A program made the position numbers and the translations under genes. Below, piece by piece: positions 25,342-46,190 of a stretch of 64,000 bases of DNA (positions are counted from its first letter, which is position 1; each line of letters starts with the position of its first letter). The notes under the pieces are model-generated. The model made no database searches and was not told where the DNA came from. It saw only the letters and a program-made list of their open reading frames with translations. The stretch is from Azotobacter salinestris (lineage in GTDB: Bacteria > Pseudomonadota > Gammaproteobacteria > Pseudomonadales > Pseudomonadaceae): positions 633,001 through 697,000 of the forward strand of contig NZ_CP045302.1 of the NCBI RefSeq assembly GCF_009363155.1, given 5' to 3'.

Positions 25342-25961
25342 CTCCTTCTCGCCATTCCCTCCCAACAGTTCCAATCGAACCGCTGGCCTGCGCGATCTAC
25401 TGCAGCCTGCGAACATCCCCTGCCGCCCATTGCGACGAGCCCGGTTCCCGATAGCCACATTCACGCCTCAAGCAAAAACGCTTCGCTGTCGGCCGGGCAG
25501 AAGCAAAACCTTTTATGCCGCTGGAAGTGTCAAACTTAATAACTGTAGAAAACTTCCATTCAAACTAACCAAACGGCAGCGAGGCAACGCAGAACTTTCC
25601 ACTCTTCTCCGAACATGACCGCCTATCGGCTGACGTACGGACATGACAATCCTGTAAACAACCCTGAACTACACTTTGCCACTTCTGAGTGGATTATTCT
25701 GCTGTGGTTTGGCGAAGTAACATTAATTTGCTACCAGAAACGGGACGGGAACAACCATAGCAAATTCATAAATATAAAAAGACAAAGAATCCATGAAGTA
25801 CCCTGCTGTTGTTTGCACGGTGGATTGAGTGCCGAGCAAGAATTCCGGCGATGACCATACCCGAGAAACCGAACGCAAGCCTGAACGAGGCGGCGCACAG
25901 GTGTTCGCACGCCCCGCAATGGCTACTTACCCGTCTTCAGGAGGCCGACGCCAAATCCTGG

Positions 25962-25972
25962 GGCGGTAGCGT
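25962..25972 (+). promoter_or_regulatory. ops element (RfaH recruitment site)
   Basis: GGCGGTAGCGT is an exact match to the core operon polarity suppressor sequence found in JUMPstart leaders of enterobacterial capsule, LPS and haemolysin operons. It is on the coding strand, 180 bp before the first gene of a polysaccharide locus longer than 37 kb. In known systems RNA polymerase pauses here and RfaH loads, preventing Rho termination and helping translation. No second copy was seen in the window. Function here is inferred. Confidence 0.7.
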
Positions 25973-26100
25973 ACCCGAAGAGGACAGCGCGCCCGCACAT
26001 ATAAGCAACCACGACTATTTCGCCTCGCTTGCTTCAGAAAGTTCCGATGGCTCTCTGCATGGAAAGTCCACGCCGGACTTCCATTACAGCGCCTGCAATT

Positions 26101-26135
26101 GTTAGCGCCGTTTTTCCAAGTCACGGCGCCATAAC
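26101..26135 (+). other. Stem-loop just upstream of wzb
   Basis: GTTAGCGCCG (26101-26110) pairs with CGGCGC-CA-TAAC (26124-26135), a 10-bp stem with a 2-nt bulge and a loop containing a T5. It lies 16 bp before the wzb start codon and could influence translation or pausing after the ops site. Confidence 0.45.
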
Positions 26136-26151
26136 TCTGGAAGCATATAAA

Positions 26152-26598
26152 GTGCTCGAACGGATACTCATCGTCTGCATCGGCAATATATGCCGAAGTC
26201 CCAGCGCCCAGGCATTGATGAAAGAAGCGCTGTCCCGCGGCAACCGGACCGTGAAGATCGACTCCGCCGGTCTGGCGGCACAGGTCGGCCTGCCGATGGA
26301 GCCCACCGCCCGCGCAGTACTTCTCGAACACCGCCACCGACCTCCCGAACACAAGGCCTGTCAGCTGAATCGCGCCATGCTGCAGCAGGCCGATCTGGTG
26401 CTGGTCATGGAGCGCCGCCATATCGGCAGCATCTACCGGATCGCTCCCGAGGCACGCGGCAAGACCTTCCTGCTCGGCAAATGGCAGGACGAAGCGGAAA
26501 TCCAGGATCCCTTCCGCCGCGACCGGACGGCCTTCGAACAGGCCTATCGACAGATTCGCACGGCCGTCGAGGCATGGGCCGCGCGCCTGGGTCACTGA
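26152..26598 (+). CDS. wzb: Low-molecular-weight protein-tyrosine phosphatase, Wzb type
   Basis: 148 residues from a GTG at 26152 (VLERILIVCIGNICRSP), selected because the homologous region begins here and a GGAAG lies eight bases upstream. The frame is open further upstream, but that part has no family text. The P-loop C-X5-R (CIGNICRS) and the general acid Asp in IQDPFRRD are intact. It dephosphorylates the Wzc tyrosine kinase encoded next, 33 bp downstream, and so cycles polysaccharide polymerisation and export. First gene of the operon. Confidence 0.92.
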   Translation: MLERILIVCIGNICRSPSAQALMKEALSRGNRTVKIDSAGLAAQVGLPMEPTARAVLLEHRHRPPEHKACQLNRAMLQQADLVLVMERRHIGSIYRIAPEARGKTFLLGKWQDEAEIQDPFRRDRTAFEQAYRQIRTAVEAWAARLGH

Positions 26599-26631: not shown

Positions 26632-28836
26632 ATGCACCCCACTTCCGTATCCAGCCCGCAAGATCACGAGGACAGCGGCATCGACCTGCGCAAGCTGCTC
26701 GGCGCCCTGCTCGACTACAAGTGGCCGATCCTCGGCGTGACCCTCCTGTTCTTCCTGGGCGGCACCCTCTACGGCATGTTCGCCACACCGATCCACCGCA
26801 CCAGCGCCCTGGTCCAGATCGAGAAGAAAAGCGGCACCGTTCCCGGACTGGAGATGGGGGACTTCACCCAGGCGTCCAGCGCCAGAACCGAAATCGAACT
26901 GATCCGTTCGCGCAGCGTGATCGGCCAGGCGGTCGACAACCTGCACCTCGATGTCCAGGCCACCCCCCTGCGCTTTCCGCTGATCGGCGACTACCTCGCC
27001 CGCCGCCATCGCGGTCAGGACCTGGCGGAGCCCCTCCTCGGCCTCGAGGAATACGCCTGGGGCGGCGAGAAGATCGATGTCTTCCGCTTCGAGGTCGAGC
27101 CGCGCTGGATCGGCAAGGCCTTCCTGCTGACCGCCGGCGACAACGGCACTTTCACCCTGGAGGAAAGCGAGGGCAAGCCGCTGCTCCAGGGCCGGGTCGG
27201 CGAAGCCCTCGACCGCAACGGCATCCGCCTGCAGATCCGTGAGCTGCAGGCCCGGCCGGGTACCCGCTTCAGCCTGCGCAAGGCGAGCCGGCTGAGCACC
27301 ATCCGCACCTACCGGGGCGCGCTGCAGCTCACCGAACTGGGTACCGACACCGGCCTGATCACCGTGGCCATGGAGCATCCGGACCCCCAGCATGCCAGCC
27401 GGGTGGTGGACGAGATCAGCCGCCTGTTCGTCCGCCAGAACGTCGAGCGCATGTCCGCCGAGGCCGATGGCAGCCTGGAGTTCCTGCGCACCCAGCTGCC
27501 GGAAGTACGCCGCGAACTGGACAAGGCCGAAGGCGCATTGAACGACTACCGCAAGCAGCACGGCTCCGTCGACATCGGCATGGAAACCGGCACCGTGCTC
27601 AGCCAGGCCGTCGAGCTGGAGACCCGCATCTCGGAGCTGAGGATGCAGCAGGCCGAACTCGACCGCCGCTTCACCCGCGAGCACCCGGCCTACAAGACCC
27701 TGCTGATGCAGATCCAGGGCCTGACCCGGCGCCAGAACGAGATCGCCAGACGGGTACAGGGCCTGCCGGAAACCCAGCAGGAGCTCCTGCGGCTGTCGCG
27801 GGACGTCCAGGTCAGCACCGCGATCTACACCCAGCTGCTGAACAAGGCCCAGGAGCTCGATCTGGTCCGCGCCGGTACCGTCGGCAACGTGCGCATCGTC
27901 GATCAGGCGGTCATCGACGGCGGCCCGGTCGCCCCGAACAAGAGCCTCATCCAGGTGGGCGCCACGCTGGCCGGGGCACTGCTGGCGATCGGCCTGGTGC
28001 TGCTGCGCAAGCTGCTCAATCCGGGCCTGGAGACCCCGGAGGCCATCGAACAGCTGGGTCTGCCGGTATACGCGGCGGTCCCCTTCAGCGGGCGGCAGGC
28101 GCATATCAAGCCCAAACGCCGTCAGATGGCCGGCGATCCCGCCGCCTCTCCGCTGCTCGCCTTGAGCCATCCCAACGATCCGGCGGTCGAGGCCCTGCGC
28201 AGCCTGCGCACCAGCCTGCACTTCATCATGCTGGGCGCCCAGGACAACCGCCTGGTGATTTCCGGCCCCGGCCCGCAGGCGGGCAAGAGCTTCGTCTGCG
28301 CCAATCTGGCCGCCGTCGTCGCCCAGGCCGGCAAGCGCGTGCTGCTGATCGACGTGGACATGCGCAAGGGCCATCTGCACAGGCTGCTCGGCATGCCGGC
28401 GGACATGGGACTGGCCGATCTCCTCGCCGGACGCTGCGAGCTCGCCGACGTGATCCACCCGACCCCGCTCCCCGGCCTGTTCCTGCTGCCGCGGGGGCAG
28501 CTTCCGCCGAACCCCTCCGAACTGCTCATGCGTCCCCAGCTCACGGCCGCCCTCGAGCAGGCCAGCGCGAGCCACGACCTGGTGATCCTCGACACCCCGC
28601 CGCTGCTGGCCGTCACCGACGCCGCCATCGTCGGCCGGCAGGCGGCCACCACCCTGATCGTGACCCGCTACGGCACGAGTTCCGCCCGGGAAATCGAGAT
28701 GACCGTCAGGCGCTTCGCGCAGAGCGGCATCGAAATCAAGGGCGCCATCTTCAACGGCCTGGAAAAGCGTGCCGCCATCTATGGCTACGGACACGCCGCC
28801 TACCACCACTACGAGTACAAGTCGGACAACGCCTGA
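26632..28836 (+). CDS. wzc: Polysaccharide co-polymerase / tyrosine autokinase, Wzc type
   Basis: 734 residues. A first membrane helix is near residues 30-50, a large periplasmic Wzz-type domain with coiled coil follows (about 280-400), and a second helix is near 442-460. The cytoplasmic BY-kinase has Walker [11 protein letters not shown] (~544), Walker A' [11 protein letters not shown] (~569) and Walker [11 protein letters not shown] (~648). The C terminus carries a tyrosine cluster ([14 protein letters not shown]), the autophosphorylation tail. It controls chain length and couples to an outer-membrane exporter in Wzy-dependent systems. No such exporter gene is visible in the window. Confidence 0.95.
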
Positions 28837-28906
28837 GCCCTGCCATCCGTTCGAGCCGATACGGACCGCGAACCCCTCCCACCAGCCGATCGTTACGGGC
28901 ACCGCC

Positions 28907-30180
<1,274 letters not shown>

Positions 30181-30184
<4 letters not shown>

Positions 30185-31287
30185 CACGCTACCAACGCCT
30201 GCTCCTCGACCTGCCGCAAACGCCCGCCACCTGGCTGGTCACCGGGGTGGCCGGCTTCATCGGCTCCAACCTGCTGGAAACCCTGCTCGGGCTCGACCAG
30301 TGGGTGGTGGGCCTGGACAACTTCTCCACCGGCCACCTGCACAATCTGGAGGAGGTCCGCAGCCGGACCTCCGCAGAGCGCTGGGCCAGGTTCCAGCTCA
30401 TCCGCGGCGACATCCGCACGCTGCACGACTGCCGCCAGGCGATGACCTTCGTGGCGGTCGTGCCGGGCTGCCGGCCCCGTCCGGTCGAGCACGTCCTCCA
30501 TCAGGCGGCCCTCGGCTCCGTGCCGCGCTCGCTGGAAGATCCCATCGCCACCAACGCCTGCAATGTCGACGGCTTCCTCAACATGCTGGTGGCCGCCCGC
30601 GACGCCGGGGTCAGGAGCTTCACCTACGCTGCCAGCAGCGCCGCCTACGGCGACCATCCCGGGCTGCCCAAGGTCGAGGACAGCATCGGCCGGCCGCTCT
30701 CCCCCTATGCCGTGAGCAAGTACGTCAACGAGCTGTACGCCGACACCTTCGCCCGCAACTACGGGCTGCCCAGCATCGGCCTGCGCTACTTCAACGTCTT
30801 CGGCAGGCACCAGGACCCGGAGGGCGCCTATGCCGCGGTGATCCCGAAATGGATCACCGCGATGCTGCGCGGCGAGGAGGTGTTCATCAACGGCGACGGC
30901 AGCACCAGCCGCGACTTCTGCTACGTCGACAACGCCGTGCAGGCCAACCTGCTCGCCGCCTGCGCCGAAGCCTGCGCGCGCAACCAGGTCTACAACATCG
31001 CCGTCGGCGAGCGCACCAGCCTCGACCGGTTGTTCCTGGCGCTTCGCCAGAGCCTGGCGAAAAACGGCCTGCGCTACGCCAGAGCCCCCCGCCATCGCGA
31101 CTTCCGCCCGGGCGACGTACGCCATTCCCTGGCGGACATCGGCAAGGCGCGACGCCTGCTGGGCTACGTCCCGCAATACGACCTGCAGGCCGGCATCGCC
31201 CAAGCCATGCCCTGGTTCATCGCCCGGAGCCTGGAGTCGGAGCCCGTCGCCTCCCGGCACCACACGCACCAACCTGCCGCGCGATAG
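30181..31287 (+). CDS. wbpP: UDP-N-acetylglucosamine 4-epimerase, WbpP/TviC type
   Basis: 368 residues; the ATG overlaps the wbpO stop (ATGA). The extended SDR fold has the NAD motif [14 protein letters not shown] and the catalytic YAVSK with Tyr176 and Lys180. [15 protein letters not shown] is the WbpP-type signature, and [14 protein letters not shown] lies near the end. With WbpO it would give UDP-GalNAcA or a related sugar. An apparent insertion near residues 88-101 ([14 protein letters not shown]) before the [10 protein letters not shown] strand is unusual. A His-rich tail extends the C terminus. Confidence 0.88.
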
Positions 31288-31294
31288 AAGGTGG

Positions 31295-33208
31295 ATGTCC
31301 TCTTCGCCAGCCATTGACCCTCGGAGCGAGCCCTTGCCCATGCGCAATACCGATCCTTCGCTGAGCCGCATCCTCAGGAGCCTCCATCCCCATCTGTCCA
31401 GGCGCCGGCGCGTCCAGCTGCTCGGCCTGATCCTGCTCATGCTGGCGGGCATCGTCGCCGAGCTGGCGACCTTCGGCAGCATAATTCCCCTGCTCACGCT
31501 GCTGGCCAACCCGCAGAAGGCGCTCGAGTTTCCGTTGCTGCAGCAGCTGTTCAATCTGTTCGGCTGGCAGCACGAGAACATCCTGCTCCCCGCCACCGTG
31601 CTGTTCGGCGTGATGGCGGTGCTCGCCTCCTTCGTGCGCATGCTGCTGATCTGGGCCAGCAACAAGACCACCTACGGCATCGGCTTCGATCTGGGCGTCG
31701 AGGTCTACCGACGCACCCTGCTTCAGCCCTACCGCTACCACGTGGCGCGCAACACCAGCCAGATCATCGCCGGCATGGGCAAGGTCCAGAGCGTGGTCAG
31801 CGGCCTGCTCATGCCGCTGATCAGCACCCTGATCGCCACCCTGATGACCTCGGCGATCTTCGTCGCCCTGATCCTCATCGACCCGGCGGTCGCCTTCGCC
31901 GCCGGCATCCTGTTCAGCCTGCTGTACCTGCTGATCAGTCTGGGCACCCGGCGCAAGCTGCGAAAGAACAGCCGGATCATCGCCCAGGCGCACAATGTGC
32001 GCGTCCAAGCCATCCAGGAAGGCCTCGGCGGCATTCGCGACATCCTGATCGACGGCTCCCAGGAGCTCTACGTCAAACGCTTCCGCAAGGTCGACGCCGA
32101 CCTGCGCAAGGCGCAGATCGTCAACTCCTTTCTCGGCACGGCGCCGCGCTACCTGATCGAAGCCATCGGCATGCTCGCCATCGCCATGCTGGCCTACACC
32201 CTCAGCCAGCGCGCGGGCGGCCTGGCCGAAGCCCTGCCGGTGCTGGGCGCCCTGGCCATCGGCGCGCAGCGCCTGCTGCCGCAGATGCAGCAGATCTACC
32301 ACGGCTGGTCGACCATCATGGGCAACCGGGGCAACATCGAGGACGTACTGGAACTGCTCGAACAGCCGATTCCGCCCGAATACCAGAAGCGCCTCCCGCC
32401 GCAGCCGATCCCCTTCGCGCGGAGCATCGAGCTCAGGGACATCAGCTTCCGCTACGCCAGCGAGGGCCCGGAGGTACTCAGGCACCTGAGCCTGGAAATC
32501 GCCAAGGGCAGCCGCACCGGCTTCATCGGCAAGACCGGCAGCGGCAAGAGCACCACCCTGGACCTGCTCATGGGCCTGCTGGAGCCCATCGGCGGCAGCA
32601 TCCTCATCGACGGCGTGCCCCTGACCCCGGCCAACCGGCGCGACTGGCAGGCGCACATCGCCCATGTGCCGCAAAGCATCTACCTGGCCGACAGCTCGAT
32701 CGCCGAGAACATCGCCTTCGGCGTCGAGCGGCGCGACCTGGACTGGGAGCGCCTGCGCGAAGCCGCACGCAAGGCGCATATCGCCGACTTCATCGAGGGC
32801 CTGGCGGATCAGTACGACACCCGGATCGGCGAGCGCGGCGTGCGCCTGTCCGGCGGCCAGCGCCAGCGCATCGGCATCGCCCGCGCGCTCTACAAGCAGG
32901 CCGACGTGCTGATCTTCGACGAAGCCACCAGCTCCCTGGACAGCGCCACCGAAAGCGCCGTGATGGAGGCCATCCGCGACCTGGGCCCGGAGCTGACCGT
33001 GCTGATCATCGCCCACCGCACCTCGACCCTGAGCGATTGCGACTGCATCTACGAGCTCGCCAGCGGCCGTCTGCTGCGCACGGCAAACCAAACCCAGATC
33101 CGCCCGCCAGGCGGTTCAAGACTGCAGATAAAGGGCTCGGGCACGCCCGAAGAGGATCTGCCGAACCTGCTCGCAGCAGGAAAAGCACACTCGATGCAAG
33201 GCAAATGA
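31295..33208 (+). CDS. ABC transporter with fused membrane and ATPase domains, PglK-like lipid-linked sugar flippase candidate
   Basis: 637 residues. The N-terminal half has six membrane helices (from about residue 45 to 330), followed by one nucleotide-binding domain: Walker A GKTGSGKST, signature LSGGQRQR, Walker B DVLIFDEATSSLD and switch His in AHRTSTL. The layout matches MsbA/PglK half-transporters. The region preceding the ATPase (GAQRLLPQMQQIYHGW) resembles PglK, the flippase of undecaprenyl-linked oligosaccharides in Campylobacter. A second ATG 15 codons in (31340) is an alternative start. It follows the epimerase by 7 bp. A flippase role in this Wzb/Wzc locus is inference. Confidence 0.8.
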   Translation: MSSSPAIDPRSEPLPMRNTDPSLSRILRSLHPHLSRRRRVQLLGLILLMLAGIVAELATFGSIIPLLTLLANPQKALEFPLLQQLFNLFGWQHENILLPATVLFGVMAVLASFVRMLLIWASNKTTYGIGFDLGVEVYRRTLLQPYRYHVARNTSQIIAGMGKVQSVVSGLLMPLISTLIATLMTSAIFVALILIDPAVAFAAGILFSLLYLLISLGTRRKLRKNSRIIAQAHNVRVQAIQEGLGGIRDILIDGSQELYVKRFRKVDADLRKAQIVNSFLGTAPRYLIEAIGMLAIAMLAYTLSQRAGGLAEALPVLGALAIGAQRLLPQMQQIYHGWSTIMGNRGNIEDVLELLEQPIPPEYQKRLPPQPIPFARSIELRDISFRYASEGPEVLRHLSLEIAKGSRTGFIGKTGSGKSTTLDLLMGLLEPIGGSILIDGVPLTPANRRDWQAHIAHVPQSIYLADSSIAENIAFGVERRDLDWERLREAARKAHIADFIEGLADQYDTRIGERGVRLSGGQRQRIGIARALYKQADVLIFDEATSSLDSATESAVMEAIRDLGPELTVLIIAHRTSTLSDCDCIYELASGRLLRTANQTQIRPPGGSRLQIKGSGTPEEDLPNLLAAGKAHSMQGK

Positions 33209-33212
33209 GCCC

Positions 33213-34181
33213 ATGAACTTCATCTCCTATGCCGACCTCAGCGGCGACATCCGGAAGAATCTGCACAGGCTGCACGACCGGGAAATCGATCTGGTGGTGG
33301 GCATTCCGCGCAGCGGCATGATCCCGGCCTACATGATCGCCCTGTATCTGAACCTGAGCTGCATCGACCTGGTGTCCTTCTGCCGGAACGAAAGCCCCGC
33401 CAATGGCAGCACGCGCAGCCCGGGCAAAGCCCTGGCCCGGGCCTGGGACGCGAAGACCATCCTGCTGGTGGACGACAGCATCACCTCGGGCCGCTCCATG
33501 CGCTCGGCCGTCGAGCAACTGCCCGAGGCGTTCACCGGCAGGGTGATCAGAATGGCCGTCTACTCGTCCTCGACGACGCCCGCCGAGGTCGACCTGTATG
33601 TCAGGCACCTGGCCTGGCCGCGCCTCTTCGAATGGAACGTCTACCACCACGGCATCCTGATTCGTTCATGCGTCGACATCGACGGCGTGCTGTGCATGCG
33701 CCCGACGCCGGAGCAGCGCCATGACCAGGAGCTGTACAGGGCCTTTCTGCAGAACGCCGAACCGCTGATCCTGCCCTCCGGCAAGATCCACTCCCTCATC
33801 AGCAGCCGGCCGGAGGCATACCGGAAAGAAACCGAGGCCTGGCTGGAAAAACACGGCATCCGCTATGAACGGCTGGTCCTGCTCGGTCTTGCCGAACAGA
33901 CGGACGGCCAGCGTCTCGCGTCATGCAGCGCAGGCAAGGCCGATTATTACCACGCCGAGGCGAAACTGGATCTGTTCCTGGAAGGCGATCCCGGCCAGGC
34001 GCTCGCCATCGCGAAGGCGACCGGCAAGCCGGTGTTTTGCGTCGGCGACAACCGGATCTATCGAGCCGGCACCCGGGAAGCCCTCCTCACCGACCCGGCC
34101 TGGATTTTGCGAAGCACCCTCAAGAAACTCAGCCAATCGATTCCAACCTCCCTGAAGAGACGCCTGCACAAACCGAGTTAG
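33213..34181 (+). CDS. Phosphoribosyltransferase-HAD phosphatase fusion protein
   Basis: 322 residues with two domains. Residues ~1-145 are a type I phosphoribosyltransferase: VVGIPRSGMIPAYM and the PRPP-binding loop TILLVDDSITSGRSM. Residues ~150-300 look like a HAD hydrolase: motif I CVDIDGVLC, motif II in LISSRPEAYRKETEAWL, a Lys in AEAKLDLF and acidic FLEGDP. Automated pipelines may call it orotate phosphoribosyltransferase, which the fusion and context argue against. It sits 4 bp after the ABC gene inside the polysaccharide operon. It might make or transfer a ribose-phosphate unit; this is inference. Confidence 0.75.
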   Translation: MNFISYADLSGDIRKNLHRLHDREIDLVVGIPRSGMIPAYMIALYLNLSCIDLVSFCRNESPANGSTRSPGKALARAWDAKTILLVDDSITSGRSMRSAVEQLPEAFTGRVIRMAVYSSSTTPAEVDLYVRHLAWPRLFEWNVYHHGILIRSCVDIDGVLCMRPTPEQRHDQELYRAFLQNAEPLILPSGKIHSLISSRPEAYRKETEAWLEKHGIRYERLVLLGLAEQTDGQRLASCSAGKADYYHAEAKLDLFLEGDPGQALAIAKATGKPVFCVGDNRIYRAGTREALLTDPAWILRSTLKKLSQSIPTSLKRRLHKPS

Positions 34182-34308
34182 ACAACCTTCACCGATTGAG
34201 CCAGACGCTATATGAAGCAATGCCTTTCCTTTTGCTACGACTCGGGCCGGCCAGGCCCGCAACAAGACTTGTCCTCTGGGAAATCTCAACCATCAGTCGG
34301 TCAGGAAA

Positions 34309-35268
34309 ATGCTCCCTCTCAAGGTCCTTGCTCTTTACAGAAGGGTCCAGAAGCTGCTGGATCGGAAACTTCCCGAACCGCTATTTTACCAACGACGCTA
34401 CTTCATACTGCACGGGCGGTTCTGCAACTTCAGGAAACCCAAGCGCTTTTCCGAGAAGATATTTCACCGGATGCGCTATCCCGCGCCGATATTCTCCCTC
34501 CTGGCAGACAAAGTCCGCGCCCGGGAATATATAGAAAGCACAGTCGGCACCCAGTATCTGGTCCCCTACTATCTCGTCTGCGACAGGGTGACCCTGGAAA
34601 CCTTCGACACCCTGCCCGACAGCTTCGTGATGAAGGCCAACCACAGCTCCGGGCAGATCAAGATCATTGCAAACAAGCACAAGGAGAATCTGCAAGAGCT
34701 GACCCATAAAGCCAACAACTGGCTGGAGAAAGACTTCTCCAAACTGTTCAGAGAAAAGCACTATGCCGGCATTCAACCCAGAGTCATCTTTGAAAAGGCT
34801 CTGCTTTGCAATGGCAAGCCGCCGAACGACTATAAATTCCATATATTCAATCACGGCCCCGGCAGTCCGCCCTACGTTTTCATACAAGTCATGCAGGGCC
34901 GCTTCGAGAAGCTGACGCAGATTCTGTTCTTCGAAGACTGGTCCATCGCCCCCTTCAACTACATCGAGAATGAGTCAGGCCAGGAGTCGCCCATATTCAC
35001 CACACCCAAGGAGTTGCCGGAAATGCTCGAAATAGCGAAGAGACTGTCGGCGCCTTTCGGCTATCTGCGCGTGGACCTCTATTGTCATGAAGGAAAAATA
35101 TACGTGGGTGAATTGACCATCACCCCGGCTGCCGGCGCCTACAGGTTCCTGCCACCGGAATGGGATCTGATATTGGGCAGCAAATTCGGCTGGCCTGAAA
35201 ATCCGCCGCCAGCCTGGTCGATCGGACAACCCTGTAGCCTGCCGTGCGCAGAAGCCGAAAAACGCTGA
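34309..35268 (+). CDS. TupA-like ATP-grasp protein
   Basis: 319 residues. FCNFRKPKRFSEKIFHRM, DSFVMKANHSSGQ, NDYKFHIFNHG and the C-terminal GYLRVDLYCHEGKIYVGELTITPAAGAYRF match the TupA-like ATP-grasp family (named after teichuronopeptide synthesis), whose members are common in polysaccharide clusters. ATP-grasp enzymes activate carboxylates for bond formation with amines or thiols, so amidation of uronic acids is plausible. The gene is less GC-rich than its neighbours, suggesting separate acquisition. The start is uncertain because AGGAAA abuts the ATG. 127 bp separate it from the previous gene. Confidence 0.8.
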   Translation: MLPLKVLALYRRVQKLLDRKLPEPLFYQRRYFILHGRFCNFRKPKRFSEKIFHRMRYPAPIFSLLADKVRAREYIESTVGTQYLVPYYLVCDRVTLETFDTLPDSFVMKANHSSGQIKIIANKHKENLQELTHKANNWLEKDFSKLFREKHYAGIQPRVIFEKALLCNGKPPNDYKFHIFNHGPGSPPYVFIQVMQGRFEKLTQILFFEDWSIAPFNYIENESGQESPIFTTPKELPEMLEIAKRLSAPFGYLRVDLYCHEGKIYVGELTITPAAGAYRFLPPEWDLILGSKFGWPENPPPAWSIGQPCSLPCAEAEKR

Positions 35269-35277
35269 GGATCAGCC

Positions 35278-36600
35278 ATGAAAGTCACCGTATTCGGAAT
35301 AGGCTATGTCGGACTGGTGCAAGGTGCCGTTCTGGCGGAAGTTGGCCACGATGTGCTGTGCGTCGATATCGACGAGGAAAAGATCGAGCGCCTGCACCAG
35401 GGCCATATCCCCCTCTACGAGCCGGGGCTGGAGACGCTGGTCAGGGAAAACCATGCTGCCGGCCGTCTCAACTTCACCACCGATGCCGCCGAAGGCGTGA
35501 GGCGCGGCGAGGTGCAGTTCATCGCCGTGGGCACGCCCGCCGACGAGGACGGCTCCGCCGACCTGCGCTACGTGCTGGCCGTGGCGGAGACCATCGCCGA
35601 GCACATGGAGCGCCCCCAGGTCATCGTCGACAAATCCACCGTCCCGGTAGGCACCGCCGACCGGGTCGCCACCCGGGTCGCCGAGATCCTCGCCCGCCGC
35701 GGGCGCGAAGACCTGACCTTCGAGGTGGTCTCCAATCCCGAATTCCTCAAGGAAGGCTCGGCCGTCGCCGACTGCATGCGTCCCGACCGCATCGTCATCG
35801 GCACCACCAGCCGCGATGCCGAAGAGGTGATGCGCGAGCTGTACGCGCCCTTCAACCGCAACCACGAAAAGATCATCGTCATGGACGCGCACAGCGCCGA
35901 GCTGACCAAATACGCCGCCAACTGCATGCTGGCGACCAAGATCAGCTTCATGAACGAAATGGCCAGCCTGGCCGAGATGCTCGGCGCCGACATCGAGATG
36001 GTCCGCCGCGGCATCGGCTCCGACCCGCGCATCGGCTACGACTTCATCTATGCCGGCGCCGGCTATGGCGGCTCCTGCTTCCCCAAGGACGTACAGGCGC
36101 TGATCCGCACCGCCGAGAACATCGACTTCGACGCCAAGCTGCTGAAGGCGGTGGCGCAGCGCAACAAGGAACAGAAGGCCAGCCTGTACAAGAAGATCAG
36201 CCAGCACTTCGAGGGCGCCCTGCAGGACAGGACCTTCGCCGTCTGGGGCCTGAGCTTCAAGCCCAGGACCGACGACATGCGCGAGGCTCCCAGCCGCACC
36301 CTGATGGAGGCGCTGTGGAACGCCGGGGCACGGGTGCAGGCCTACGATCCGGAGGCCATGGAAGAGGCCCAGCGCCTGTACGGCAACCGCACCGAGCTGG
36401 CCCTCTGCGGCACCAAGGAGGCCGCGCTGAAGGATGCCGACGCCCTGGTGATCGTCACCGACTGGCAGGCCTTCAAGGCCCCGGACTTCGAGTTCATCAA
36501 GCAGCAACTCAGGCAGCCCTTGATCTTCGACGGACGCAACCTGTTCGAGCCCGCGCGCATGCAGAGCAAGGGGATCAAGTACTACTCGATTGGACGCTGA
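35278..36600 (+). CDS. ugd: UDP-glucose 6-dehydrogenase
   Basis: 440 residues. The NAD motif is [19 protein letters not shown]. Catalytic Cys267 lies in [14 protein letters not shown] and Lys in the [20 protein letters not shown] stretch. The C-terminal domain is [17 protein letters not shown]. It oxidises UDP-glucose to UDP-glucuronate (AlgD/Ugd superfamily). It is distinct from the WbpO-like enzyme upstream, so the locus makes at least two UDP-uronic acids. It follows the ATP-grasp gene by 9 bp. Confidence 0.93.
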
Positions 36601-36802
36601 ACAACCGAAACCAGCGGGAAATCATCGTGCCGAGCCGATGCCCCATATCCGCACGGCCTTCAGGGAAGTTGCCGCCCCATCTTCCGACAGGCCATGCATG
36701 CAACTATCACATGTCGGGTCAACGGATCGTCCCCCGTGATGCGGTCGGGGGTCAGCAGGACTGGATTATCGAGCAAACCAAGCCCGTCGAGAGTCGACCA
36801 AC

Positions 36803-37636
36803 ATGGACAAGCTCCGCATGACCACTCCGAAGAAAATAGCCGTATACACAGCCATAACCGCTGGCTACGACAACTTGGAAGAGCCCACCTGCACATCTCC
36901 GGAGCATATCGATTATCTGGCCTTCACCGATTGCGACATCCATTCCCGGTTCTGGAAAATAATTCGCCTGGATGAAAGCTACTCGCATCTGGACAGCGTC
37001 AGAAAGGCAAGAAAAATCAAGATCGTCGGCCACCCCGTCCTGGAACAATATGACTGCACCATCTGGATAGATGGAAACATCGACATAATAGGCGACATCA
37101 CCGAACTCCTGCCGCTGCTCGACAAGCATGACCTGATCACCTTCAAGCACCCGCGCAGAAACTGCATCTACGAGGAAGCCATGTCCTGTCTGTCGAGCAA
37201 GAGGGACTCCGTAGACGTTCTGAAGGAACACATCGAATTCCTGAAGAGACAAGGCTATCCGGCAAAGCATGGGCTGATCGAAAGCAACGTCCTGCTCCGC
37301 AGGAAGACCCCCGCACTTGAAAAGCCCATGAACGCCTGGTGGGAAATGGTGCTCGGGCGGAGCAGAAGAGACCAACTGTCCTTCAACTACATAGCCCATC
37401 AACACAATCTGAACTTCGGGCTCATGGGCAACGACAATGCATACGACGGAACAAGCAAATACTTTTTCCGGCGTGAACGGCATCGGCGCCCTCCGCCTGT
37501 CGAGCGCTATTCCTGGCACTACCGTTACTCGGCCTACCTGGCCCTCTTCCATACCAGGAGATATGTGAGCAGGGTCCGTAAAAAACTGATCAAGCACCTG
37601 GACAGCCTGGCCCATACCCGCCCCAAGGATGCCTAG
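36803..37636 (+). CDS. DUF616 (TOD1/MUCI70-like) glycosyltransferase-like protein
   Basis: 277 residues. Conserved text: VYTAITAGYDNLEEP, DYLAFTD, SVRKARKIKIVGH, DCTIWIDGNIDI and HPRRNCIYEEA. These fit DUF616, a family with a GT-A-like core including a DxN/DxD-type stretch (IDGNIDI, near residue 90). Biochemical activity is not established in bacteria. Lower GC content than the flanking genes. It is preceded by a 202-bp gap after ugd, in which only a short CCCCCG/CGGGGG dyad (36731-36751) was noticed. Confidence 0.8.
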   Translation: MDKLRMTTPKKIAVYTAITAGYDNLEEPTCTSPEHIDYLAFTDCDIHSRFWKIIRLDESYSHLDSVRKARKIKIVGHPVLEQYDCTIWIDGNIDIIGDITELLPLLDKHDLITFKHPRRNCIYEEAMSCLSSKRDSVDVLKEHIEFLKRQGYPAKHGLIESNVLLRRKTPALEKPMNAWWEMVLGRSRRDQLSFNYIAHQHNLNFGLMGNDNAYDGTSKYFFRRERHRRPPPVERYSWHYRYSAYLALFHTRRYVSRVRKKLIKHLDSLAHTRPKDA

Positions 37637-37683
37637 TCCCGAGCGATCTCTCCCATCCCCACCCAATAAGAGCTGGAAGAGCC

Positions 37684-38661
37684 ATGAATATCTCCATTGC
37701 CATGGCCACCTACAATGGCAGCCGCTACCTGCAGGAACAGCTGGACAGCTTCGTCCGCCAGACCCGCCAGCCCGACGAGCTGGTGGTCTGCGACGACTGC
37801 TCGAGCGACGAAACCGTCCATATCCTGGAGAAGTTTCAGAGACAGGCGCCCTTTCCCGTGCGCCTCTACCGCAACGAAAGAAACCTGGGCTACATCAGGA
37901 ACTTCGAGAAGGCGCTGTCCCTGTGCCGCGGCGATGTCCTGTTCCTGAGCGACCAGGACGATGTCTGGTTCGAGAACCGGCTCGAGATCGTCGAGCAGGC
38001 TTTCCTGGCGCACCCCGAGAAGATGGTCGTGCTCAACGACCAGGAAATCACCACGCAGAACCTGGAGCCCACCGGCCGCAGCAAACTGGGCAACACCCGC
38101 AGCCTGGGCTTCAGCGACACCTATTTCATCACCGGTTGCTGCACCGCGCTGCGCAGGGTCTGGCTCGAGGTCGCGCTGCCGATTCCCGAGGTGGTCGGCC
38201 ATCACCACATCCCGCACGACATCTGGATCAACAAGCTTGCCGACTTCCTCGGCCTGCGGCTGATCATCGATCGCCCGCTGCAGTTCTACCGAAGGCACGG
38301 CAACAACGCCTCGCACAGCGTCTCCAGCAGCACCGGCCGACTGTCCCGGCTGCAGGTGCTGGCCAGCCATGGCCTGAAGGATGCCCGCGAAGGCTGGATG
38401 ACCCAGATCGTCCACGCCAACCTGTACCTCGAGCGGCTCGAGGCGAACCGGACGCGCCTGAAGGTCCTCGGCGCCGACCAGCGCCTGGAGCAGGCGCTGG
38501 CCCGCCTGCAGGCCCGGATTCCGGCCTTCGAGCGACGCCTGGCGATCGCCGCGCGCCCGCGCTGGCGACGCAGCCCGGAACTGCTGCGCTTCTGGCTGTC
38601 GGGCGGCTACCAGACCTTCGCCGGCTGGAAGAGCGCGCTCAAGGACATGGTCCGGCCATGA
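37684..38661 (+). CDS. Family 2 glycosyltransferase, rhamnosyltransferase-like
   Basis: 325 residues. GT-A fold: SIAMATYNGSRYLQEQLDSF, the VVCDDCSSDET nucleotide-binding Asp pair, a DxD-type FLSDQDDVWF near residue 85-95 and a membrane-proximal C terminus. The SDQDDVW motif is typical of dTDP-rhamnose or related transferases. GGAAGAG precedes the ATG. Its stop overlaps the start of the next gene by 4 bp, beginning a chain of overlapping glycosyltransferase genes. Donor and acceptor are not deducible. Confidence 0.88.
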   Translation: MNISIAMATYNGSRYLQEQLDSFVRQTRQPDELVVCDDCSSDETVHILEKFQRQAPFPVRLYRNERNLGYIRNFEKALSLCRGDVLFLSDQDDVWFENRLEIVEQAFLAHPEKMVVLNDQEITTQNLEPTGRSKLGNTRSLGFSDTYFITGCCTALRRVWLEVALPIPEVVGHHHIPHDIWINKLADFLGLRLIIDRPLQFYRRHGNNASHSVSSSTGRLSRLQVLASHGLKDAREGWMTQIVHANLYLERLEANRTRLKVLGADQRLEQALARLQARIPAFERRLAIAARPRWRRSPELLRFWLSGGYQTFAGWKSALKDMVRP

Positions 38662-39794
38662 CCGCTCCGCGCCCCTCGGTCCTCCATCTGCTCACCTCGC
38701 TGCACTTCGGCGGCGTGGAAAAGCGCATGGAGCTGCTCGCCGAACAGCCGGCAGGCGACATGCAGCACCTCTTCTGCGCCATCGGCGGCGGGGGCAGTGC
38801 CGAGCGCCAGCTGAAAACCCTCGGTGCCCCGGTCCACTGCCTGCACCAGCCGGCGAAAATCCCCAGCCCGGCCGCCATCCTCGCCCTCGTCCGGCTGCTC
38901 CGCCGGCTGCGTCCGACGGTGCTGCACGCCCATGGCGCCGAGGCCAACTTCCACGGCCTGATCGCCGCCCGGCTGGCCGGGGTGCCGGTGCGGGTCGGCG
39001 AAGAGATCGGCATCCCGACGCACAGTGCGCACGCCCGCCGGGTGTTCCGCCAGCTCTACCGCTGCGCCCACTGCGTCATCGGCATCTCCGACGCGGTGAC
39101 CGGCTGGCTGGTCGACAGTGGGGAGGTACCGCCGGCCAAGGCGATCCGGGTCTACAACCCGGTCAAGCTGCCGAACGGGCGCAGTGCGCGGGTGCCGACG
39201 GCCGAAACGCTGCGCATCGGCTTCGTCGGCCGCCTCGAGGCGGTCAAGAACCCCCAGGCGCTGGTCGAGGCCGTCGCCCTGCTGCGCGCCCGTGGCATTC
39301 CCGCGGAACTCTGGCTGATCGGCGAGGGTCGCGAGCGGGAACGGCTCGAAGCCTTCATCCGCGCCCAGGGGCTGGACGACCGCGTGCATCTGCTGGGCTA
39401 CCGGCCGCATCCCGACGCGTACGTGCGCCAGTGCCACCTCTACGTCCAGCCGTCCCGCTCCGAAGGCTTCGGTCTGGCGCTGGTCGAGGCCATGGGTTGT
39501 GGCGTCCCGGTCATCGCCACCGCGGTGGGCGGTGCGCCGGAAATCGTCGCCCCAGGCACCACCGGCTGGCTGCTGCCGGAGGCGACCCCGACCGCCCTCG
39601 CCGCCGCCCTCGAGGCGGCCTGGCGGATCGGCCCGCAGCGGCTCGCGGCCATGGGCGCGCGGGCGCGCGGCGCCGTCGAGGGACGCTTCGAACCCGCCCG
39701 CTACAAAAGCCGGCTGGAAACCCTGTACCGGCAATTCACCCCCAAACGGGCCCAAGGCGAACATGGACAAGATCCGGATTCTGCACTGCCTTGA
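38658..39794 (+). CDS. Family 4 glycosyltransferase
   Basis: 378 residues from the ATG overlapping the previous stop. GT-B fold: N-terminal VLHLLTSLHFGGVEKRM, HAHGAEANFHGLIAARLAG, then the C-terminal donor domain IGFVGRLEAVKNPQALVEA and the EX7E region PSRSEGFGLALVEAMGCGVPVIATAVGG. Retaining cytoplasmic transferase. The gene overlaps the next one by 32 bp, an unusually long coding overlap. It is clearly a paralogue of that next gene (same GGVEKR/GGVEQR opening). Confidence 0.9.
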   Translation: MTAPRPSVLHLLTSLHFGGVEKRMELLAEQPAGDMQHLFCAIGGGGSAERQLKTLGAPVHCLHQPAKIPSPAAILALVRLLRRLRPTVLHAHGAEANFHGLIAARLAGVPVRVGEEIGIPTHSAHARRVFRQLYRCAHCVIGISDAVTGWLVDSGEVPPAKAIRVYNPVKLPNGRSARVPTAETLRIGFVGRLEAVKNPQALVEAVALLRARGIPAELWLIGEGRERERLEAFIRAQGLDDRVHLLGYRPHPDAYVRQCHLYVQPSRSEGFGLALVEAMGCGVPVIATAVGGAPEIVAPGTTGWLLPEATPTALAAALEAAWRIGPQRLAAMGARARGAVEGRFEPARYKSRLETLYRQFTPKRAQGEHGQDPDSALP

Positions 39795-40893
39795 AACGGT
39801 CGGCTCCGGCGGCGTCGAACAGCGCCGCCTGACCCTGGCCCGTCAGCTCGACGGCTCGCGCTACCAGCAGGCGCTGGTCTGCACCCAGGCCATGGGCGCC
39901 CTGCCGGCGCGCTTCGCCGAGGCCGGCTGCCCGCTACACGCCGTCGGGGTGTTCCGCGGCGTGCTGGACCGCGAACCGTACCGACGGGCCCTGCGCGTGA
40001 TCCGCGAGTTCCGCCCGCACATCATCCACGGCGCGGTGTTCGAGGGCGTGTCCCTGGCCGCCATCCTCGGCCGCCTCGCCCGGGTGCCGGTGATCATCGG
40101 CGAGGAAACCTCCGACCCGGTCAACCGCCGCTGGCGCGGCCACCTGCTGCTGCGGCTGCTGGGCAGCCTGAGCCACCAGATGGTGGCGGTGTCGCCCGCC
40201 GTCGAGCAGTACCTGCTCGGGCGCCTGCACCTGCCGCGCAGCAAGGTCACCCTGATCAACAACGGCGTGGCCGAGACGGCGCCGCCCGACGAGGAGCGGA
40301 TCCACGCCTTGCGCGAGCAGTTCGGGCTGGCCCCGGAGCACTTCGTGATCGGCACCGTCGGCCGGCTGCACGACCACCACAAGCGCGTCAGCGACCTGCT
40401 CCGCGCGCTGGCCACGCTGCTCCCGGCCTGTCCCGAGACGCGCCTGCTGATCGTCGGCCGCGGGCCGGACGAAGGCCGGCTGCGCGAACTGGCCGACCGG
40501 CTCGGCGTCGCCGATCAAGTGCGCTTCGCCGGCTACCAGGCCGACCCGCAGCCTTGCTACGCGCTCATGGACGTCTTCGCCCTGGCCTCGGCCATGGAGG
40601 CCTTCGGCCTGGTGCTGGTCGAGGCGATGTACGCCGGACTGCCGGTGGTGGCGACCCGGGTGGGCGGCATCCCCAACATCGTCGACGAAGGCAGGAGCGG
40701 CCTCTTGGTGTCGCCCGGCCAGCCGCAGGCGCTCGCCGAGGCCATCCTGGACCTGCAGCGCGACCCCGCCCGGCGCCAGGCCATGGGCCGGGCCGGGCAG
40801 CGCCTGGCCACCGCCAACTTCGGCGCGGAACGCTACGTCCGCGAAGTCGACCACCTCTACCAGCGCCTCGCCGCCGAGCGCCTCGCGTCATGA
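39763..40893 (+). CDS. Family 4 glycosyltransferase
   Basis: 376 residues from the ATG at 39763 (MDKIRILHCLETVGSGGVEQRR), inside the last 32 bp of the previous gene. The family start motif sits right at this ATG, so the overlap is real and not a mis-set start. Donor-site text: GTVGRLHDHHKRVSDLLRAL and SAMEAFGLVLVEAMYAGLPVVATRVGG. It overlaps the following gene by 4 bp (ATGA). Likely adds one sugar of the repeat unit; specificity unknown. Confidence 0.9.
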   Translation: MDKIRILHCLETVGSGGVEQRRLTLARQLDGSRYQQALVCTQAMGALPARFAEAGCPLHAVGVFRGVLDREPYRRALRVIREFRPHIIHGAVFEGVSLAAILGRLARVPVIIGEETSDPVNRRWRGHLLLRLLGSLSHQMVAVSPAVEQYLLGRLHLPRSKVTLINNGVAETAPPDEERIHALREQFGLAPEHFVIGTVGRLHDHHKRVSDLLRALATLLPACPETRLLIVGRGPDEGRLRELADRLGVADQVRFAGYQADPQPCYALMDVFALASAMEAFGLVLVEAMYAGLPVVATRVGGIPNIVDEGRSGLLVSPGQPQALAEAILDLQRDPARRQAMGRAGQRLATANFGAERYVREVDHLYQRLAAERLAS

Positions 40894-42101
40894 ACATTCT
40901 CTACGTCACCTGGGACGGCCCGCAGGTCACCTACCTGGAGAGCCTGTTCCTGCCGATCTTCCAGCGGCTCTCCGCGGTGGGACTGCACTTCCACATCCTG
41001 CAGTTCACCTGGGGCGAGGAGACGCTCATCGAGCGCCGCCGCCAGGCCTGCCGGCAGGCCGGACTGGCCTACCGGGCGCAGCGGATCCGGCGCCGGCCCC
41101 GCGCCCTGGGCGGCCTGCTGACCGCGCTCGAGGGCGCCCGGCTGATCCGCCGGGCGATCGACGAGCAACAGATCGATGTGCTGATGCCGCGCAGCACGCT
41201 GCCGGCCCTGGCCAGCCTGCTGGCGCTGCGCGGCCGTACGCTGCCGATGGTCTTCGACGCCGACGGCCTGCCCCTGGACGAACGGGTGGAGTTCGCCGGC
41301 CAGTCGCCGTCCAGCCTGGCCCAGCGCCTGCTGCGCGATGTCGAGGCGCAGGCCGTGCGCCGCGCCGACCGCGTGCTGACCCGCTCGCAGCAGGCGGTGG
41401 AGATCCTCCTGGCGCGGGCCGGCCCGGGCACCTCGCCCGGCAAGTTCCAGGTGGTCGGCAACGGCCGCGACATCGAGCGCTTCAGCCCGGGAGACGCCGA
41501 CTCGCGGCGGCGGATGCGCGAGCGGCTGGGATTGGCCGCCGACACGCCACTGCTGGTCTATGCCGGCTCGCTCGGCCCGCAGTACTGCGCGGAGGAAATG
41601 TTCCGCCTGTTCGGGCGAATCCTTCAGCGGCGCACCGATGCCCGCCTGCTGGTCCTGACCGGCTCGCCGGAGCTGCTGCAGCCCACCTTGGAGCGCTTCG
41701 CCGCGCTGGCGCCGGCGGTGTCCTGCCTGTCCGTGCCGGGCGAGGCGGTGCCCGGCTACCTGGCCTGCGCCGACCTGGGCCTGGCGCTGCGCCGGAGCAG
41801 CTTTTCCATGCGCGGCGTGGCGCCGATCAAGCTCGGCGAGTACCTGCTCTGCGGCCTGCCGGTGCTGGCCAGCGCCGGCATCGGCGACACCGACGCCATC
41901 GCCGCCAGAGCCGGGCGGCTGCTCGCCGCTCTGGCGGACGCCGAACTGGACCGGGCGGCCCGCTGGTTCTGCGACGAGGTGCTGGCGCAGCGCGAGGCCT
42001 GGCGCGAACGCTGCCGGAACCTCGGCATCCGCCACTTTTCCCTGGAGGCCTGTGCCGACGCCTATGCGGCGGCCCTGACGCCCCTGCGCACATCCGTGTA
42101 G
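40890..42101 (+). CDS. Family 4 glycosyltransferase
   Basis: 403 residues; ATG overlapping the previous stop. N-terminal MNILYVTWDGPQVTYLESLF, the acceptor-domain segment VFDADGLPLDERVEFAG and the donor domain VVGNGRDIERFSPGD and LLVYAGSLGPQYCAEEMF identify a GT-B glycosyltransferase. The terminal Glu motif is less canonical (RRSSFSMRGVAPIKLGEYLLCGLPVLAS), with the GVAPIKLGEY form seen in some GT4 subgroups. Last of the directly overlapping chain 37684-42101. Confidence 0.85.
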   Translation: MNILYVTWDGPQVTYLESLFLPIFQRLSAVGLHFHILQFTWGEETLIERRRQACRQAGLAYRAQRIRRRPRALGGLLTALEGARLIRRAIDEQQIDVLMPRSTLPALASLLALRGRTLPMVFDADGLPLDERVEFAGQSPSSLAQRLLRDVEAQAVRRADRVLTRSQQAVEILLARAGPGTSPGKFQVVGNGRDIERFSPGDADSRRRMRERLGLAADTPLLVYAGSLGPQYCAEEMFRLFGRILQRRTDARLLVLTGSPELLQPTLERFAALAPAVSCLSVPGEAVPGYLACADLGLALRRSSFSMRGVAPIKLGEYLLCGLPVLASAGIGDTDAIAARAGRLLAALADAELDRAARWFCDEVLAQREAWRERCRNLGIRHFSLEACADAYAAALTPLRTSV

Positions 42102-42154
42102 GCGGTGCCCCTGCAGCCTTCCCTGTCCGGCAGCCAGCCCCGCGGAGAACCGAG

Positions 42155-43240
42155 ATGAAGATCCTCCTGCTCACCCGCTACCCGCGCACGGGCGCCAGCA
42201 GCCGGCTGCGCACCCTGCAGTATCTGCCCCACCTGCAGGCCGCCGGCCACGAGGTCCGGGTGCAGAGCCTGTTCGACGAGGCCTACCTGGAAAGCCTCTA
42301 CCGGTACGGCCGGCGCTCGCCGGGACGGACCGCGGCGCTCTACCTGCGCCGCCTGGCCGCGCTCGCCAGGGCCGGCGACCACGACCTGCTGTGGATCGAG
42401 AAGGAGCTCTTCCCCTACCTGCCCGCCTGGGTCGAGCGCCAGCTGGGCACGCCCTGGATCGTCGACTACGACGATGCGGTGTTCCACAGCTACGACCAGG
42501 CGCGCAATCCCCTGGTCCGCCGGCTGCTGGGCGGCAAGATCGACGCGGTCATGCGCAGCGCCAGCGGCGTGATCGCCGGCAACCACTACCTGGCCGAGCG
42601 CGCCCGCGCCGCCGGCGCGGCCCGGGTGACGGTGATTCCCACCGTGGTGGACCAGGCCCGCTACCAGCCGCGCATCGTGGCGCCGGCCGCGCACCCGGTG
42701 ATCGGCTGGATCGGCTCGCCCTCCACCCAGAAGTACCTGCTCGACATCCGCGAACCCCTGCAGCAGGCCTGCCGGCGATACGGCGCGCACCTGCTGCTGG
42801 TCGGCGCGACGGCGGAGATCCGCGCCTGCCTGCCCGGCATCGAGATCCAGATCGAGCCCTGGAGCGAGGCGCGCGAGGCGGCGCTGATCCGGCGCATGGA
42901 CGTCGGCATCATGCCGCTGCCGGACGGGCCCTGGGAGCGCGGCAAGTGCGGCTACAAGCTGATCCAGTACATGGCTTGCGCCGTGCCGCTGGTGGCCTCG
43001 TCGACCGGCGCCAACCGGGAGATCGTCGAGCACAGCGGCGCGGGCCTGCTGGCCGACTCGGGCGATGCCTGGCACGACGCCCTGTCCCGCCTGCTGACCT
43101 CGGCCTCCGAACGGGAACGGCTGGGCCGGGCCGGGCGCCAGGCCGTGGAGAACCGCTATTCGCTGCAGCGCCAGTTGCCGGTGCTGCTGGACACCCTGGC
43201 CGCGGTGCTTCCGGCCAGCCGCAAGGCTTTGGCCCATTGA
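42155..43240 (+). CDS. Family 4 glycosyltransferase
   Basis: 361 residues. MKILLLTRYPRTGASSRLR is the opening of a GT4 group common in exopolysaccharide loci. VDYDDAVFHSYD lies near residue 110, the donor site IGWIGSPSTQKYLLDI is mid-protein, and the C-terminal text is PDGPWERGKCGYKLIQYMACAVPLVAS. GGAG precedes the ATG. 53 bp separate it from the previous gene and 15 bp from the polytopic protein that follows. Specificity unknown. Confidence 0.9.
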   Translation: MKILLLTRYPRTGASSRLRTLQYLPHLQAAGHEVRVQSLFDEAYLESLYRYGRRSPGRTAALYLRRLAALARAGDHDLLWIEKELFPYLPAWVERQLGTPWIVDYDDAVFHSYDQARNPLVRRLLGGKIDAVMRSASGVIAGNHYLAERARAAGAARVTVIPTVVDQARYQPRIVAPAAHPVIGWIGSPSTQKYLLDIREPLQQACRRYGAHLLLVGATAEIRACLPGIEIQIEPWSEAREAALIRRMDVGIMPLPDGPWERGKCGYKLIQYMACAVPLVASSTGANREIVEHSGAGLLADSGDAWHDALSRLLTSASERERLGRAGRQAVENRYSLQRQLPVLLDTLAAVLPASRKALAH

Positions 43241-43255
43241 TCGGGGAAAATAGCC

Positions 43256-45594: not shown

Positions 45595-46190
45595 TGCTCA
45601 AGCGCCTGTTCGATATCCTCGTCGCCGCCAGCGCCCTGCTGCTGCTCGCCCCGCTGCTGCTGGTGCTGGCCTGGCTGGTGCGCCGGCGGATCGGCACGCC
45701 GGTGCTGTTCCGCCAGCTGCGGCCCGGCCTGCGCGGCCGGCCGTTCGAGCTGCTCAAGTTCCGCAGCATGCGCGAGGCGCTGGACGCGCACGGCATGCCG
45801 CTGCCCGACGCCGAACGCCTGACGCCGTTCGGCCGCTTCCTGCGCGCCACCAGCCTGGACGAGCTGCCGGAGCTGTGGAACGTGCTCAAGGGCGACATGA
45901 GCCTGGTCGGCCCGCGCCCGCTGTTGATGGAGTACCTGCCGCTCTACACCCCGGAGCAGGCCCGCCGCCACGCGGTCCGCCCCGGCATCACCGGCTGGGC
46001 CCAGGTCAACGGCCGCAATGCTCTAAGCTGGGAAGAGAAATTCCGCCTGGATGTCTGGTACGTGGACCACCGCTCGTTTCGCCTCGACCTGCGCATTCTG
46101 CTGCTGACCCTGCGGCGGGTGCTGGCGCGCGAGGGCATCAATGCCGAGGGCGAGGCGACCATGGCCCGCTTCACCGGGAGCAAACCATGA
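45594..46190 (+). CDS. Initiating phosphoglycosyl transferase, PglC-like
   Basis: 198 residues, the short monotopic form. One N-terminal hydrophobic re-entrant helix (about 5-30) is followed by the catalytic domain: VLFRQLRPGLRGRPFELLKFRSM, the Asp-Glu pair in TSLDELPELWNVLKGDMSLVGPRPL, and PGITGWAQVNGRNALSWEEKF. It transfers a sugar 1-phosphate from UDP-sugar to undecaprenyl phosphate. Length and neighbours (PglA-, PglD- and PglE-like genes) point to a di-N-acetyl-bacillosamine-type substrate rather than galactose or glucose. It overlaps the next gene by 4 bp. Confidence 0.93.
   Translation: MLKRLFDILVAASALLLLAPLLLVLAWLVRRRIGTPVLFRQLRPGLRGRPFELLKFRSMREALDAHGMPLPDAERLTPFGRFLRATSLDELPELWNVLKGDMSLVGPRPLLMEYLPLYTPEQARRHAVRPGITGWAQVNGRNALSWEEKFRLDVWYVDHRSFRLDLRILLLTLRRVLAREGINAEGEATMARFTGSKP

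Follow-up and report, generated by a model that had tools for sequence, protein, structure and literature searches.

One of the closest described counterparts of the leader analyzed here is the ops/RfaH regulon of Escherichia coli, whose rfaH gene is described as monocistronic and trans-acting (PMC7593976). In PMC11001881, escape of RNA polymerase from the ops pause is sped by GreA and, less strongly, by Mfd, the pause is said to be biochemically distinct from an RNA-hairpin-stabilized pause such as that of his, and ops and RfaH alone are suggested to determine the cycle. The RNA of these leaders was described by Weinberg et al. in 2010 as a conserved stem-loop, JUMPstart (PMC2864571), and the Rfam model RF01707, as printed, has one stem; since pseudoknots are beyond what covariance models can represent, the underlying Rfam or Weinberg alignments may carry annotation of a crossing helix. 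A NusG paralogue is also associated with a conserved leader RNA structure in Bacillus, where LoaP acts at the dfn leader (PMC12691694); LoaP, however, binds a UNCG RNA hairpin, whereas the known recruiter in the leader studied here is ops DNA. According to PMC7593976, about 60% of Pseudomonadaceae lack RfaH. In Azotobacter chroococcum NCIMB 8003, rfaH adjoins a surface-polysaccharide island, and the text of the genome paper gives no match to NusG, wzb, or wzc (PMC4465626). In the titles and abstract openings of the open-licence literature, we found no report of a leader pseudoknot for RfaH or JUMPstart.

Within the 64-kb stretch of the Azotobacter salinestris genome that we analyzed (here called the window), the 11-mer GGCGGTAGCGT has a single exact match, at 25962-25972 on the + strand, and its end lies 179 nt before position 26152, the probable GTG start codon of wzb. 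This confirms the original prediction, made from the letters of the window, of an exact ops 11-mer on the coding strand about 180 bp before wzb. The chance expectation of about 0.03 per window that came with it was too low, since the base composition of the window predicts 0.083 exact copies per 64 kb. Over the whole genome, we counted 7 exact copies against 6.9 expected from base composition, and the bare 11-mer is for that reason no evidence at genome scale. In 56 genomes of the genus to which family genome G163 belongs, we counted 73 occurrences of the bare 12-mer and 153 of its reversed control; with counts at or below chance, neither the bare 11-mer nor the bare 12-mer was accepted as a marker at genome scale. 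By itself, the 11-mer is weak and would not carry the case for RfaH.

Compared with the 12-nt ops sequence of the non-template strand, GGCGGTAGCGTG, the window has 11 of 12 bases, with A at position 12. Among 115 elements from the family (see below), this position is G in 111, A in 3, and T in 1, and it is G in both E. coli K-12 leaders; enterobacterial plasmid JUMPstarts without G12 also occur (A in L414 and C in L410). In E. coli, the G12C change is described as removing the U11 pause in vitro while recruitment is retained (PMC5995543). The element lies in the leader of a long surface-structure operon, the placement characteristic of ops in RfaH-dependent leaders (Table 1). When 26 + strand frames between 28769 and 63112 were scanned, 19 had a Pfam match at an E value of 1e-5 and 7 had none, and the matched families were mostly those of sugar-nucleotide, glycosyltransferase, and transport proteins. 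We found no match to a sigma-70-type consensus promoter in 25300-26700.

Table 1. Coordinates of the leader, the predicted RNA helices, ops, and the downstream genes in the window.
Feature	Position	Strand	Remarks
Leader, upstream MatE-family gene to wzb	25342..26151	+	
S1 5' strand CGTC	25932..25935	+	Covarying helix H1, alignment columns 9-12 with 25-28
L1, one nucleotide	25936..25936	+	May also pair with ops G1
S2 5' strand TCAGGA	25937..25942	+	Covarying helix H2
L2 loop	25943..25946	+	
S1 3' strand GACG	25947..25950	+	Covarying helix H1
L3 loop, AAA at end	25951..25955	+	AAA in search pattern
S2 3' strand TCCTGG, abuts ops	25956..25961	+	Covarying helix H2
ops positions 1-11, predicted RfaH recruitment element, non-template strand	25962..25972	+	Exact match; extended element in 91/398 family genomes
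ops position 12 = A	25973..25973	+	Also A in A. vinelandii and A. chroococcum
wzb, low-molecular-weight protein-tyrosine phosphatase, first gene of locus	26152..26598	+	PF01451, E 8e-32
wzc, BY-kinase/polysaccharide co-polymerase	26632..28836	+	WZC_N, GNVR, Wzz
Downstream frames: UDP-sugar dehydrogenases, ABC transporter, glycosyltransferases, sugar-phosphate transferase, aminotransferase, epimerase, others	28769..63112	+	Pfam scan

A Pfam search of the genome for NusG-family proteins identified two. The first is the housekeeping NusG (TIGR00922), and the second scores 162.3 bits with the RfaH equivalog model TIGR01955, for which the cut-off is 144.5. The best PDB matches of the second protein are RfaH entries such as 2oug, which we take to be E. 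coli RfaH, and its assignment as RfaH is based on these sequence models. It retains K10, R16, R23, Q24, and R73 and has N in place of H20, so that three of the four residues in the ops-contacting set (K10, H20, R23, and R73) are kept, the contacts being those given in PMC5995543. Among the 30 strongest RfaH matches in the family, 28 have H at residue 20 and 2 have N. The rfaH gene lies approximately 570 kb from the window element on the same contig, and RfaH would therefore act in trans there. The window genome shares with the E. coli regulon 11 of 12 ops bases, an RfaH equivalog, the leader position, the long surface-polysaccharide locus, and placement on the coding strand, but it differs in ops position 12 and in RfaH residue 20, and many relatives of the window genome differ further in having rfaH just upstream of the element.

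Conservation around the 11-mer extends beyond ops. When the leader DNA was compared with 57 relatives, 19 genomes matched, and many of the matches were short and confined to approximately 25925-25980; in the 13 short-match loci that we examined, the exact 11-mer was present in all and the shared upstream part in nearly all. In four Azotobacter genomes, the 11-mer is exact in every one while the flanking leader drifts, and the 41 nt at 25932-25972 are identical in three, with the fourth keeping the 11-mer and both helices listed in Table 1. Across 398 family genomes, the 3' half of the element, AAATCCTGGGGCGGTAGCGTG, was found at up to two mismatches in 91, and its reversed control had 0 matches among those listed for the family search. 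In this search, no more than two mismatches were tolerated over the S2 3' strand and the L3 AAA, and S1 and the S2 5' strand were unconstrained. Five genomes with only a chance match (G083, G098, G174, G217, and G298), in which ops was disrupted or the hairpin absent, were dropped, and five of the 120 element places (L206-L210) were excluded before alignment because the ops was broken or the hairpin missing; the window and the remaining 115 places make up alignment A1. The 11-mer is exact in 114 of the 115 kept family elements, a proportion to be read with the fact that the search itself required a near match. We conclude that the surrounding 41 nt, unlike the bare 11-mer, are not a product of chance. 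A class-wide scan with TGGGGCGGTAGCGTG, allowing one mismatch, matched 57 of 274 genomes; its reversed control also matched in many, and the scan was set aside as too loose. Four kept elements lack the Pseudomonad S2 (L149, L195, L199, and L200) and were retained in A1. Tandem elements were seen at two loci, at 635 and 1417 in L145 and at 661 and 1324 in L191 (with spacings of approximately 780 nt in genome G078 and 660 nt in G170), and the second L145 copy, which has a one-mismatch ops, was also retained.

To characterize the genes that follow the element, we took the longest frame after each one, which gave 112 frames, omitted 10 near-duplicates, and scanned the other 102 proteins. They matched 55 Pfam families, led by Wzz (20 proteins), GNVR (16), Polysacc_synt (13), and BBP2_2 (12), followed by GATase (11), WZC_N (10), SIS (8), and UDP-sugar dehydrogenase (7); five of the 102 were metallo-beta-lactamase-fold proteins. 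The commonest genes downstream of the element are thus those of surface-polysaccharide families.

RfaH scored over the cut-off in 198 of the 398 family genomes. When the element and RfaH tables of these 398 genomes were compared by eye, an RfaH match at an E value of 7e-27 or better was present in 85 of the 86 remaining element genomes, including three (G009, G205, and G382) in which, judged by E value, it is probably under the curated cut-off. The sole exception, G216, is a 92% complete metagenome-assembled genome (MAG) in which we found neither RfaH nor NusG. Three of the five dropped chance-match genomes had no RfaH. An rfaH match lies upstream of 61 of the 115 elements on the same strand, where the upstream DNA covered was mostly 481 to 697 nt, and in 59 of these 61 regions the match ends 57 to 455 nt from the element. 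For the 110 elements that fall in 109 named stretches, rfaH is in the locus of 63, being upstream on the same strand in 53, on the other strand in 9, and otherwise placed in 1. Of the 198 genomes in which RfaH exceeds its cut-off, no fewer than 112 do not have the element. In addition, at the 30 loci (L065-L094, approximately 3.5 kb each) around the strongest family RfaH matches, an exact ops with a hairpin was present in 2 and absent from 28, and one of the 30 had a two-mismatch match. Where RfaH is present and the element is not, recruitment may depend on a different signal. The RfaH control suggested by the original prediction is supported by the presence of the RfaH equivalog that a NusG-paralogue search of the genome had been expected to reveal and by the conservation of the 11-mer, which is exact in all four Azotobacter genomes and in nearly all family elements; the control itself is still something that we infer.

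The letters immediately 5' of ops can form two crossing helices, S1 and S2, and we consider it very probable, from the covariation in A1, that both helices are real and make up an H-type pseudoknot. In A1, S1 takes the form NGTY with RACN, and S2 that of YTCARGR with its complement immediately before ops. The pseudoknot pairs are formed in 91.9% of cells, and 96 cells show double changes, compared to 15.4 ± 3.4 in shuffled alignments (0 of 500 reached this number) and 13 to 24 in versions in which the helices were slid. S1 is 86.0% paired, with double changes in all four of its pairs (two of the pairs show them in 24 and 29 sequences), and S2 is 95.2% paired, with double changes in five of seven. 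Since relatedness can mimic covariation, we permuted the strands within genera, using 97 distinct elements. An S1 of at least 4 bp was present in 72% of the elements compared to 59% after permutation (0/500), while for an S1 of 5 bp the values of 34% and 28% gave no clear difference (38/500). A complete S2 was present in 84% compared to 64% (0/500), a figure that is flattered because the S2 5' arm was chosen for best pairing. Within the genus g5 (Halopseudomonas), S1 occurs as AGTC/GACT, TGTT/AACA, TGTC/GACA, CGTT/AACG, and CGCC/GGCG, each change being compensated; the outer S1 pair fails in many loci of genus g9. By mutual information with APC correction, 3 of the 11 pairs rank 1, 7, and 10 of 1,136 and the rest are lower, with only one of the three in S1. 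The two crossing helices of an H-type pseudoknot are thus both supported by compensatory changes, with a mixed APC result. Nested folding, which does not model pseudoknots, gave z-scores of -2.57 to -0.03 over six leaders.

Three of the seven 11-mers in the window genome follow a pairing-competent leader: that of the window and those at C2:1173972 and C2:1227857. The second (C2:1173963-1173983; L120 564-584) has the same extended element as the window and precedes a frame that we take to be methyltransferase-like. The third (C2:1227857-1227867; L121 ~2868, - strand) places ops approximately 75 nt past the stop codon of rfaH and before a frame that is presumably mannose-1-phosphate guanylyltransferase-like. 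At this rfaH-linked copy, S2 has drifted (TCGGAA with TTCTGG, the final G being ops G1) and S1 is TCGTT/AACGA. The four other copies (L002, L005, L006, and L007), judged by eye, lack the element. In two of these four, six upstream bases happen to be pairable, and pairing in S2 is thus not diagnostic by itself.

Outside the Pseudomonadaceae, 9 of 13 named stretches with the element pattern have S2 with six of six pairs and S1 with 4 to 5 bp: two each from Alcanivorax, Salinicola, and the Moraxellaceae and three from Marinospirillum. Their S1 helices include CGCC/GGCG, TGCC/GGCA, GGCG/TGCC, and AAGT/ACTT in Alcanivorax, Salinicola, and Marinospirillum. The remaining four stretches (L281, L295, L313, and L329), three from Methylotenera/Methylophilaceae and one from a Lentisphaerae MAG, have at most five of six S2 pairs and were set aside; we presume from their appearance that the three Methylotenera/Methylophilaceae matches are coding and hldE-like and that they resemble ops by coincidence. 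In viral contigs, our search confirmed no RfaH, and the element pattern matched 22 stretches, two of which (L398 and L400) contain an enterobacterial JUMPstart with both helices. L400 closely resembles the K-12 waa leader and is possibly host DNA.

The window leader and the JUMPstart model RF01707 have in common a stem immediately 5' of GGGGCGGTAGCGT and an occurrence in polysaccharide leaders, but they differ in the sequence of stem and loop, and the window leader scores 21.2 bits (E 0.093), which does not reach the gathering score of 35. The E. coli K-12 rfb and waa leaders, used as controls, score 60.0 and 55.2 bits. The model likewise gave no gathering hit in nine more loci, namely, the rfaH-linked copy in the window genome and eight family element loci, which include L199 and L200, both without the Pseudomonad S2. 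To compare the enterobacterial leaders themselves, which the Pseudomonad pattern did not find, we took 12 plasmid leaders among the matches listed (40 of 71 records), of which L412 and L418 gave no parse and were omitted. Across the remaining ten and the K-12 pair, S2 is 98.3% paired and ends at ops or one base before it, and S1 (CAGU with GCUG) is 93.8% paired; L415 lacks the S1 5' strand and L413 lacks one pair. The loops of this pseudoknot are 3, 1, and approximately 4 nt long. S2 covaries in these leaders, with 7 double-change cells compared to 2.9 in shuffles (1/500), although the number of pairs with such changes (2) is not above that in shuffles. Support for the enterobacterial S1 is conservation only, because the helix is nearly invariant there. 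As judged from their predicted pairing, the E. coli JUMPstart leaders fit the Pseudomonad pseudoknot topology with a different sequence.

That the 11-mer is there by chance, or belongs to a small coding frame at 25851-26105, is barely credible: the genomic count equals the chance expectation and the frame spans the site with 84 codons, its start and its course to the element being open in A. chroococcum, but the extended element recurs in the family while its reversed control does not appear among the matches listed, and the frame has no Pfam match, is broken from its start by indels in A. vinelandii and A. beijerinckii (G002), and has a different end in A. chroococcum. The frame is broken, moreover, while the 41 nt stay identical in three of four genomes. 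It is also quite unlikely that this is an ordinary ops/JUMPstart leader in which only ops DNA and a simple S2 stem-loop matter and S1 is an artefact of the alignment or of particular clades. S2 is the stronger helix and corresponds to the stem in RF01707, S1 is nearly invariant in enterobacteria, and a single S1 pair is in the APC top 10; however, S1 had no part in the search pattern, and it shows double changes in every pair, survives the within-genus permutation at 4 bp or more, changes its type with compensation in g5, and recurs in Alcanivorax, Salinicola, and Marinospirillum.

A different fold for the same strand would be a single long hairpin, in which the CGTYY strand pairs with the GGGCG of ops RNA and extends S2 rather than crossing it. 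This hairpin is the nested minimum free energy structure in the window (-18.9 kcal/mol), and its pairs are formed in 93.2% of cases compared to 91.9% for the pseudoknot. Since ops does not vary, no double changes occur in the added pairs (columns 9-45, 10-44, and 12-43). Column 9 departs from this pairing in 24 of 111 rows, and its covariation is with column 28 (24 rows doubly changed and 29 unpaired); we regard the long hairpin as very improbable. The structure could also serve translation or the fate of the mRNA, by ribosome docking or protection from Rho, after polymerase has left, rather than pausing. A need for RNA in initial ribosome loading is left open in PMC11001881; such a role, however, would not require the register between S2 and ops, which is present also in the enterobacterial JUMPstarts (the abutment in Pseudomonads was built into the search pattern), and we regard it as somewhat unlikely.

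We favor the reading that 25932-25972 is an RfaH recruitment module, made of ops DNA and a 5' RNA pseudoknot, in the leader of the wzb-wzc surface-polysaccharide locus, and consider this reading probable as a whole; for the recruitment of RfaH at the window ops, as predicted from the sequence, our confidence is high. By analogy to E. coli, RNA polymerase would transcribe the leader and pause at ops. If the RfaH of the window genome acts as its homologs do, RfaH would then bind the non-template ops hairpin, exclude NusG, and stay with polymerase and ribosome along the long locus. From the end of S2 at 25961 to the RNA 3' end at U11 there are exactly 11 nt (25962-25972), and S2 could therefore close only as polymerase reaches or leaves ops; it would be free to close once polymerase is at ops positions 11 to 13. 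In the his-type pause, the stabilizing RNA stem likewise stands some 11 nt behind the 3' end of the paused transcript, a spacing shared by the window stem. Closing at the RNA exit channel, the pseudoknot might limit backtracking and set the length of the pause, which would be tuned so that RfaH can load while polymerase still escapes. The time at which S2 closes is where a block to backtracking would be useful, and we put an anti-backtracking or pause-tuning role for the pseudoknot at somewhat less than an even chance.

The covariation of the helices suggests that more than ops and RfaH is selected in the cell. We tentatively propose, as an idea that may well prove wrong, that a pseudoknot behind polymerase is a third ancient component of RfaH recruitment, an anti-backtracking or escape device retained in enterobacteria, in Pseudomonadaceae, and in some further Gammaproteobacteria, with its sequence replaced along the way. 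The element provides candidate RfaH targets in the exopolysaccharide loci of Pseudomonads, among them the window and nine loci missed by the present Rfam model, and a second conserved element with compensatory changes would mean that selection acts on some feature of the nascent RNA as well.
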